From Chloroflexota bacterium (GTDB lineage Bacteria; Chloroflexota; Dehalococcoidia; Lucifugimonadales; JADFKI01), in NCBI GenBank assembly GCA_009840355.1, contig VXNZ01000024.1, forward strand, positions 1 to 41,498: a stretch of 41,498 nucleotides of DNA. The letters are read 5' to 3'. The stretch's first letter is position 1. Every line of letters begins with the position of its first letter. This document shows positions 15,729 through 19,952 of the stretch, piece after piece. The translations under genes were made by a program, and so were the position numbers. The notes beneath the pieces were generated by a model. That model was not told where the DNA came from, did not search any database, and saw only the letters and a program-made list of their open reading frames with translations.

Positions 15729-15835
15729 GCCGCCATTCAATCTCAAACCAATAGCAAGTTACCCCATCCATTAGCGAACTACTACATGCGAGCCACCCGT
15801 TGAGCGCCGTCCAAGACTTGCCGCAAACCGACAAG

Positions 15836-16489
15836 ATGCCCTACGCGCTGCGTCCGATGCACGAACGCGATCTCGAGCAGGCGTCCGAGGTAGAGCGGGA
15901 CGCGTTCCCCACGCTGTTCCCTCCGACATCTTTTCGCCGCGAGCTGAAGAATCGTCTCGCGCGCTACCTGATTGCGTGGCGTCTTGAAGACCCGCCGGAG
16001 CTGGTGGCGCAATTTGAACGGCAAGCTAAGTCAAACAGAAACAGGGGACTATGGCATCGCGCAGCGGCGAGCATCTGGCGCGGCCGTCCAGTCGCGTGGC
16101 AGCCGGGTCAGCAGTACATCGTCGGCTTTCTCGGCGTGTGGTATATGCCCGACGACGCGCACATCGTGTCGGTCGGCGTGCGCAACGACTATCGCGGGTT
16201 GGGCATAGGAGAACTGCTGCTCATTGGTGCGATAGAGCAGGCGCAACAGCGCAGACGGCACATCGTCACGCTCGAAGTGCGCGTGTCCAACCATGTCGCG
16301 CAGAATCTGTATAAGAAATACGGCTTTGAGACGACTGGCATTCGCAAGGCCTACTACTCGGACAATCGCGAAGACGCGCTAATTATGACCGTGTCGTCTA
16401 TCCATACCCTGGAGTATCGCCAAGAACTGCGCCGCCTGACAGCGGAGCACCGCAAGCGTTGGGGCAGCGCAGAGCGCATCCTGTCGTAA
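15836..16489 (+). CDS. GNAT-family N-acetyltransferase (RimI-like)
   Basis: A predicted acetyl-CoA-dependent N-acetyltransferase, 217 aa from ATG 15836; a TTG at 15800 would add 12 residues. The N-terminus begins the fold with YALRPMHERDLEQASEVERDAFP. The acetyl-CoA pyrophosphate-binding motif is near the middle (VRNDYRGLGIGELLL), followed by LEVRVSNHVAQNLYKKYGFETTGIRKAYY, which is typical of RimI-type enzymes that acetylate protein N-termini such as ribosomal protein S18. A central insert (about residues 50-95) is longer than in RimI, so another amine or peptide substrate is possible. It stands alone with its own promoter. Confidence 0.85.
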   Translation: MPYALRPMHERDLEQASEVERDAFPTLFPPTSFRRELKNRLARYLIAWRLEDPPELVAQFERQAKSNRNRGLWHRAAASIWRGRPVAWQPGQQYIVGFLGVWYMPDDAHIVSVGVRNDYRGLGIGELLLIGAIEQAQQRRRHIVTLEVRVSNHVAQNLYKKYGFETTGIRKAYYSDNREDALIMTVSSIHTLEYRQELRRLTAEHRKRWGSAERILS

Positions 16490-16615
16490 TGCGCAAAGTC
16501 GTCGGCGCAAAATCGAATCTTTCGAGAGTGCATCTTATTTTCACAGTTAGGAGATAAGATAGGCGTTCCGATAATGACGAGTGCCGGGGTCGGACGGATT
16601 GAACTAGGAGAAAGA

Positions 16616-17746
16616 ATGTCGCTGCTGGTAAAAATCGGAGTATTCCTGACGGCAATCTTGCTGGTCGTGAGCATGCTTGCGCCGCTGCTTACGCCGTTCT
16701 TCCAAGAGCAGGTCATCCCGCGTTTCGGCGGCAACGCGCCTGAAGAGCCGGCGGCGATCAACGGCGAGGCGATGTGGCAGCCGCGAATCATCGAGCCGCG
16801 CTACGACATCATCACTGTGCTTGGGTTCGACGCTATCCCTTCCATCAACAATCCCGAATTCGTGAGCGCGACTGAAGCCGAAGAGTGGATGGCGGAAGAC
16901 GAGCAGGTCATCGGCTTGTCCATCAACGGCGACCATCGTGCGTATTCCATCCCATTGCTTAGCCGACACGAAATCGTCAACGACACGGTTGGCGGCAAGC
17001 CCGTCGCCGTAACATGGTGACCGCTGTGCTACTCGGCTATAGTCTATAGCCGCGAAATCAATGGCAACGAGCACACATTCGGCGTCTCCGGCAAGCTCAT
17101 TATGAACGCGCTGGTGATGTACGACCACCAGACCGAGACGCTATGGAGCCAATTCTTAAGCAAGGCAGTTGACGGCGTTTTGACCGACACCGAATTGGAA
17201 GTCGTGCCCGCAACGCAGACCGGCTGGCAGGCGTGGCGGGAGTTGCACCCGGACACGAGGGTGCTCGACAAGGGAGGCGCCTACCGAGTCGATTCGTACA
17301 CGCACTACTATGAGAACGACAGGGCGGGAATACACGGGCAATTCAACCCGGACGACCGCCTGCATCCAAAGGCGCTCGTGCTGGGCGTGAACATCGACGG
17401 CAAGCAGAAGGCGTATCCGTTCGGCGCGCTGACGGCACAGCAGGTGGTCAACGACACCGTCGCGGACAACGATGTGCTGATATTCTTCGACGCGGCAACC
17501 GGCACCGCGCTCGCATTTGACCGCAGCCCTGGCGACACGTCGCTCACATTCCGCATGGAAGGCGAACCCGCAGGCGCGCGTACAACGCTAGTCGATGAGC
17601 AGACCGGCAGCACATGGACCGCCTTCACCGGTAGCGCAACAGACGGCGAGCTGAAGGGCAGTCGCCTTCAGCGCGTCCCATCACACCTATCCTTCTGGTT
17701 CGCCTGGAGCGACTGGAACCCCCACACCGAAATCTACGCGCAGTAA
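16616..17746 (+). CDS. DUF3179 domain protein, predicted selenoprotein with in-frame UGA (Sec135)
   Basis: A membrane-anchored extracytoplasmic protein of 376 aa. The ATG at 16616 is chosen because AGGAG stands 5 nt upstream; an in-frame ATG at 16574 lacks one. Residues 4-28 are a hydrophobic anchor. The frame is continuous across a single TGA at 17018-17020: the preceding codons read KPVAVTW and the following ones PLCYSAIVYSR. DUF3179 proteins have a C-P-L-C motif at this point, so the TGA replaces the first Cys, giving U-P-L-C. The remainder (MNALVMYDHQTETLWSQF, GVNIDGKQKAYPFGAL, SHLSFWFAWSDWNPHTEIYAQ) matches the rest of the family. A hairpin starting 13 nt after the TGA looks like a SECIS element. 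The family's function is not established; UxxC suggests thiol redox chemistry or metal binding outside the membrane. The alternative is a nonsense mutation at a Cys codon. Confidence 0.8.
17021..17054 (+). promoter_or_regulatory. Predicted bacterial SECIS element for UGA 17018-17020
   Basis: A perfect 8-bp stem, CGGCTATA (17034-17041) with TATAGCCG (17045-17052), closes on the loop GUC (17042-17044). The loop lies 21 nt after the UGA, inside the 16-37 nt distance used for bacterial SECIS searches, and begins with G as required. The tip A-GUC-U resembles the GGUCU tip of the E. coli fdhF element. It would bind SelB with Sec-tRNA during translation. Confidence 0.7.
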
Positions 17747-19307: not shown

Positions 19308-19952
19308 TCATTCCAAAGTTGCCACGCTAAACACCACGTGGAACGGCCTGCAGTAGATTACCACGCTGCCATACCCCTCGCCGTCTTCGCCGTCCGGCAG
19401 GAAGTAGTTCTGATTGCCTTCGTTGCCCTTTAGCTTGCCCAGCCCGAGGTAGCCCTGTACATCGTCGCGACCCTGCGGATTGGCGTTCGGCACTAGCAGC
19501 ACGTGCAATTCGGGTCCATTCGTAACACGGAAATCTTCCAAGCGCAGCACATGCATGCCTTCCGCGCTGCGGTAGATGGTCGCTGTGCCGCTGCCCTTGT
19601 GGAAGCTATCCGCGTCTCGGAAATTGCCCGTCTTGACCTTTACCACAGACGCATCCATCATGGACGAATTGTCTGGCATCGCCATCTCCGCCGGCACGCG
19701 CTCGTCGTACTTCTCGAACTCGCCCGCGGCGTCGCGCATCATCGTTTCCGCGTCCGCCATCGTCTCGACCATCACCGTCTCGCCGCTGTCCATAACCACC
19801 TCGGCGGGCAGCACAGCGTTCGCCGCGAGCGGAAAGTCTTCGTTTACAGTAGTGGTGATGAACAGCGGCGACAGCAGCCACCAAGCCAGCGCGAGCGCCG
19901 GTATGCCGAAGATTACAACTGCGCCAATTATTATGCGCTTGCGAGTGAACAT
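19308..19952 (-). CDS. DM13 domain protein, membrane-anchored
   Basis: A protein of 214 aa with an N-terminal signal anchor (residues 6-30, IIIGAVVIFGIPALALAWWLL) and a Met/Asp/Glu-rich linker (about 45-105). A C-terminal DM13 domain (about 108-214) starts GNFRDADSFHKGSGTATIYRS and ends YGSVVIYCRPFHVVFSVATLE. The single Cys in IYCRPF is the conserved DM13 cysteine, proposed in the literature to serve a redox role in extracellular domains. It is oriented outward from the membrane. ATG 19952 follows a region without a strong ribosome binding site. It stands alone, about 1.6 kb from the DUF3179 gene. Confidence 0.88.
   Translation of the reverse strand: MFTRKRIIIGAVVIFGIPALALAWWLLSPLFITTTVNEDFPLAANAVLPAEVVMDSGETVMVETMADAETMMRDAAGEFEKYDERVPAEMAMPDNSSMMDASVVKVKTGNFRDADSFHKGSGTATIYRSAEGMHVLRLEDFRVTNGPELHVLLVPNANPQGRDDVQGYLGLGKLKGNEGNQNYFLPDGEDGEGYGSVVIYCRPFHVVFSVATLE

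Follow-up and report, generated by a model that had tools for sequence, protein, structure and literature searches.

The gene at positions 16616-17746 of the window, which is the whole 41,498-nucleotide stretch analysed here, very probably encodes a membrane-anchored, selenocysteine (Sec)-containing DUF3179 protein, in which an in-frame UGA is decoded under the direction of a SECIS element and residues Sec135 and Cys138 act together in a redox mechanism. DUF3179 already figures in published selenoprotein tables (PMC9312934 and PMC13188914), so the gene is a new member of a known family, and the suggestion in the preliminary description that the family may be undescribed has to be withdrawn. 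The features discussed below are collected in Table 1.

Table 1. Positions and supporting evidence of the features at the DUF3179 locus (window coordinates)
Feature	Position	Strand	Details	Evidence
GNAT acetyltransferase gene	15800..16489	+	directly upstream of DUF3179	synteny kept in relatives
Ribosome-binding site AGGAGA	16606..16611	+	precedes ATG at 16616	sequence
DUF3179 selenoprotein gene	16616..17746	+	376 codons including one Sec-UGA, TAA stop	translation, Pfam match, UGA-containing orthologue
Predicted N-terminal transmembrane/signal-anchor helix	16622..16690	+	codons 3-25	AlphaFold2 model
First beta-domain copy (predicted)	16904..17227	+	residues 97-204, with U-P-L-C	AlphaFold2 model, structure comparison, hhalign
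Sec-UGA	17018..17020	+	residue 135, in-frame	translation, homologue alignment, tree
Partner Cys138 codon	17027..17029	+		homologue alignments
SECIS stem-loop	17034..17052	+	7 bp, 5-nt loop	covariation, folding, covariance model
Second beta-domain copy (predicted)	17375..17716	+	residues 254-367, redox pair lost	structure comparison, hhalign

The reading frame and the conservation of its UGA

Translated with TGA as Sec (U), the frame yields 376 residues with a single internal TGA, ends at TAA, and places residue 135 in the context KPVAVTW-U-PLC-YSAIVYSR. The DUF3179 profile (Pfam PF11376) matched the joined protein end to end (profile positions 2-292 of 292) with 317 bits and an E-value of 1.5e-94, above the Pfam gathering score of 27 bits, and together with the translation this confirmed the earlier proposal that one TGA is the sole break in the gene; a search of NCBIfam with the protein returned no family. 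The remaining two frames across the gene contain 15 and 9 stops. When both strands of the window were scanned, four TGAs had 100 or more open codons to either side, and by inspection a recognisable domain was joined only at 17018-17020.

Orthologues with an internal TGA were found in a search of 60 related genomes, down to approximately 50% identity, and a genome of the same genus carries a UGA-containing orthologue that is 95% identical. The TGAs of the relatives share one alignment column, at which the remaining members have a Cys codon; the placement of Sec at the first Cys of a CxxC motif, put forward in the preliminary description, is borne out by this alignment, with homologues of both kinds present. 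A tree of 137 sequences, 73 with Sec (TGA) and 64 with Cys at the motif column, contains at least 10 changes between the two states, 8 of which are forced by well-supported branches. In a scan of named genomes, the Sec form occurred in MAGs labelled Chloroflexota, Tectomicrobia, Nitrospinota, Poribacteria, Acidobacteria, Methylomirabilota, and Bacillota, and Cys forms occurred, for example, in Thaumarchaeota, a halophilic archaeon, Bacteroidetes, and Actinobacteria. The motif takes the forms U-P-L-C, U-T-L-C, U-P-I-C, U-I-K-C, and, once, U-P-L-A, and Cys138 is kept in all aligned homologues but one, from a distant MAG (L115), which has Ala.

Whenever a gene is intact apart from a single stop in its frame, a nonsense mutation, and thus a pseudogene, or a misread TGC or TGT has to be suspected. 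However, dozens of genomes, each assembled separately and together spanning several phyla, have TGA at this column, dN/dS against the closest relative is equally low upstream (0.05) and downstream (0.07) of the UGA, and the covarying SECIS described below is found only in the TGA genes. On these sequence comparisons, a pseudogene or sequencing error may be regarded as already refuted by cross-genome conservation and retains practically no probability, and the view of UGA 17018 as an amino-acid codon under selection is strongly supported.

Several members of the family deserve a separate mention. The genome that contains the window encodes two further DUF3179 proteins, one with a UGA and the motif U-T-L-C that belongs to a separate Sec clade (L049, G000:C56:73981-74910) and one of the Cys type (L053, G000:C17:63052-64017). 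The U-P-L-A gene of the Bacillota MAG (L115:4256-4303) has kept Sec and a well-paired SECIS stem and has lost the partner Cys. Two divergent genes with the motif U-I-K-C (L078 and L084) pair on a long branch of the tree, and one Sec-type gene (L026, G050:C34) is split into two frames near residue 167, a break that may represent a frameshift, decay, or an assembly error.

SECIS element and selenocysteine machinery

The SECIS stem-loop starts 13 nt 3' of the UGA and conforms to the published bSECIS limits, which call for a loop of 3-9 nt with a G within its first two positions, a stem of 4-16 bp, a spacing of 16-37 nt, and an MFE of -7.5 or lower. The folding energy of the single sequence is unremarkable (z of -1.0), so the case for the element rests on covariation. 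Two-sided, compensatory changes were observed in six of the seven stem pairs (60 cells), and 85.7% of cells were paired, whereas shuffles gave 66.4% and slid controls no more than 47.8%. The covariation score was 0.414, compared with 0.119 in shuffled and at most 0.094 in slid alignments. The G at +22 after the UGA is invariant across the Sec genes. Sec genes form on average 6.0 of the 7 stem pairs, compared with 3.1 in Cys genes, and synonymous recoding of the Sec genes gave a mean of 3.9 of 7 pairs (maximum 4.3 in 1000 draws; own gene, 0.4%). At the level of sequence, the stem-loop is absent from the Cys homologues and is destroyed by synonymous recoding. A covariance model applied to loci mostly outside its training set separated the two types: every match of 41 bits or more was a Sec gene and no Cys gene exceeded 37 bits, the divergent Sec gene L115 (28.5 bits) being the exception to this separation; an Rfam search of the region returned no SECIS family match.

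The genes selA, selB, selD, and selC (tRNA-Sec), which the preliminary description had named as the ones to look for, are all present in the window's own genome: a tRNA-Sec with a UCA anticodon (66.4 bits), selB (342 bits), selA (531 bits), and selD (389 bits; L043, G000:C14:129387-130307). The last of these carries an in-frame UGA, so the selenophosphate synthetase of this genome is likely a selenoprotein itself. Six of the 60 related genomes are without both tRNA-Sec and an above-cut-off selB; four of these have no UGA-type DUF3179, two of the four (G037 and G048) carrying the Cys type only. The other two (G007 and G053) are fragmented MAGs that carry UGA-type DUF3179, and MAG incompleteness most simply explains why tRNA-Sec and selB were not detected in them.

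Reassigned UGA occurs in some bacteria, and the codon could in principle be read as another amino acid through code reassignment or stop read-through. This is extremely improbable in view of the complete Sec machinery and the SECIS, of the many other genes here that end in TGA, as observed in the preliminary description, of the window scan, which revealed no other credible in-frame TGA, and of the motif column, which is held strictly by TGA or Cys codons. As for Sec itself, since the UGA is kept by selection, the SECIS lies just downstream, and the full machinery is encoded, SelB would deliver Sec-tRNA at UGA 17018.

Protein architecture, gene linkage, and proposed mechanism

The AlphaFold2 model (mean pLDDT of 90) predicts a helix at residues 3-25 followed by an all-beta body. 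This hydrophobic N-terminal helix agrees with the exported and anchored protein envisaged in the preliminary description, and many homologues have a hydrophobic stretch upstream of the domain, with a lipobox-like motif in some. The two halves of the body constitute an internal duplication (hhalign probability of 99.9%, 122 columns, 29% identity), with the U/C redox pair in the first copy only and lost from the second. In the model, Sec135 lies at the end of a beta-strand, before a tight turn that contains Cys138.

Rieske folds are the best structural match of both halves (Z up to 8.6 and 8.5), and for the N-terminal half all the matches shown are Rieske proteins or Rieske-domain proteins, which raises the question of a Rieske-type iron-sulfur protein with the UxxC as part of an altered cluster site. 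Nevertheless, a Z near 8 may reflect a shared arrangement only, and the CxH...CxxH cluster ligands are not conserved in the alignments, in which conserved Cys/Sec residues are confined to the two motif positions and an invariant His is absent. No match emerged when profiles were compared with those of Rieske proteins from relatives, or when solved structures were searched by sequence. Given the weak Foldseek E-values, the absent ligands, and the profiles that do not match, the similarity is one of fold and not of Rieske membership; an iron-sulfur protein of this type is very improbable, and the halves of DUF3179 are predicted to adopt a Rieske-like beta fold without cluster ligands, as a resemblance only. 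The UxxC is not claimed to replace the Rieske cluster loop, since the order of the strands points to an adjacent hairpin instead. As a separate observation, three related genomes (G010, G013, and G014) gave 37-59 Rieske-domain matches each, compared with 0-5 in the other genomes searched, which suggests a large expansion of Rieske oxygenases in them.

The neighbours at the window's own locus are the GNAT acetyltransferase, which has no clear functional tie to DUF3179, an ECF sigma factor, a SnoaL/DUF4440 protein, and an alpha/beta hydrolase; a search for an electron donor at this locus found no thioredoxin among them. A membrane-anchored protein with a Cys-containing DM13 'electron transfer' domain is encoded 1.6 kb from DUF3179 (19308-19952, minus strand). 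In other clades, a TlpA-type thioredoxin adjoins DUF3179 in some relatives, of both the Sec (L201, L203, and L205) and the Cys type (L144, L155, L202, and L204), and the thioredoxin-like domains of these linked neighbours were confirmed by Pfam. In places, a CcdA/DsbD-like membrane protein is also present beside the pair; the CcdA-like neighbour scored under the Pfam cut-off, and a DsbD_TM search of relatives gave mostly weak matches. Among the best 17 TlpA-like matches in relatives, five lie within 3 kb of DUF3179, compared with 0.12 expected, a linkage that is weaker as independent evidence because the query was chosen as a DUF3179 neighbour and the cases share ancestry.

The Sec-Cys pair could also be a metal-binding site, for instance in copper or mercury handling, instead of a redox-cycling one. 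CxxC and UxxC pairs can bind soft metals, and Sec is listed in a mercuric-reductase-like and a mercury-transport family (table in PMC9312934). However, the alignments contain no further invariant Cys or His that would complete such a site, and the genes linked in some relatives encode thioredoxin-like proteins, not metal proteins, which makes metal binding rather unlikely. Judged by its motif and by gene linkage, the DUF3179 protein is most likely a membrane-anchored extracytoplasmic thiol/selenol oxidoreductase.

In the mechanism proposed for this oxidoreductase, the N-terminal helix would hold the protein on the outer face of the cytoplasmic membrane, and the first of the tandem beta domains would display Sec135-Pro-Leu-Cys138 at the end of a beta-strand. 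Sec135 would attack the substrate, which may be a disulfide, a peroxide, or another oxidised compound, and Cys138 would resolve the intermediate as a selenenylsulfide. An extracytoplasmic TlpA-type thioredoxin could then re-reduce the Sec135/Cys138 pair and would itself be fed by a CcdA/DsbD-type membrane protein; the TlpA-type thioredoxin is only suggested as electron donor, by the linkage in some relatives and not at the window's own locus. A more general scheme, in which DUF3179 represents a class of selenoenzymes that use a duplicated beta domain of Rieske-like type instead of a thioredoxin fold and that, in Chloroflexota and other little-known phyla, stand at the end of an extracytoplasmic TlpA/CcdA electron relay, is speculative and on balance doubtful.

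Comparison with known systems

The published tables list DUF3179 with the motif UxxC/T, and PMC9312934, in its table, credits the selenoprotein to the Olavius algarvensis symbiont study of Zhang and Gladyshev (2007). A DUF3179 protein predicted in the cytoplasmic membrane has also been tabulated among the genes of two Idiomarina strains. The gene described here shares with the published family the Pfam assignment, Sec as the first residue of the CxxC motif, and the existence of Cys homologues; whereas the credited study, as cited there, concerned a symbiotic deltaproteobacterium, the present genes are from Chloroflexota, with several paralogues per genome. What is added is the breadth of the Sec form in Chloroflexota and six other phyla with at least eight Sec/Cys switches, the internal duplication with the redox pair in the first copy only and its predicted Rieske-like fold, and the presence of TlpA-type thioredoxin genes beside DUF3179 in some relatives. 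A selenoprotein family known mainly from table entries is thus shown to be common and multicopy in uncultured Dehalococcoidia and related bacteria, in which ordinary gene calling would split the gene at the UGA, and the switches, the SECIS covariation, and the clues from fold and linkage together lead to a testable idea of its role.

The element resembles the bacterial SECIS of the Escherichia coli fdhF type in being a stem-loop just 3' of the UGA whose loop carries G-U close to its beginning, and differs in the surrounding coding sequence, in having a stem sequence of its own, and in its lack of an Rfam match. Rieske-fold proteins (PF00355) give the best structural matches for both halves, but DUF3179 shares neither their cluster ligands nor any sequence-profile similarity. 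With the thioredoxin-fold UxxC selenoproteins (Trx-like, DsbA-like, and Prx-like), DUF3179 has in common the UxxC redox motif and, probably, thiol/selenol chemistry; in contrast to them, it is predicted to carry this motif on an all-beta duplicated domain instead of a thioredoxin fold.
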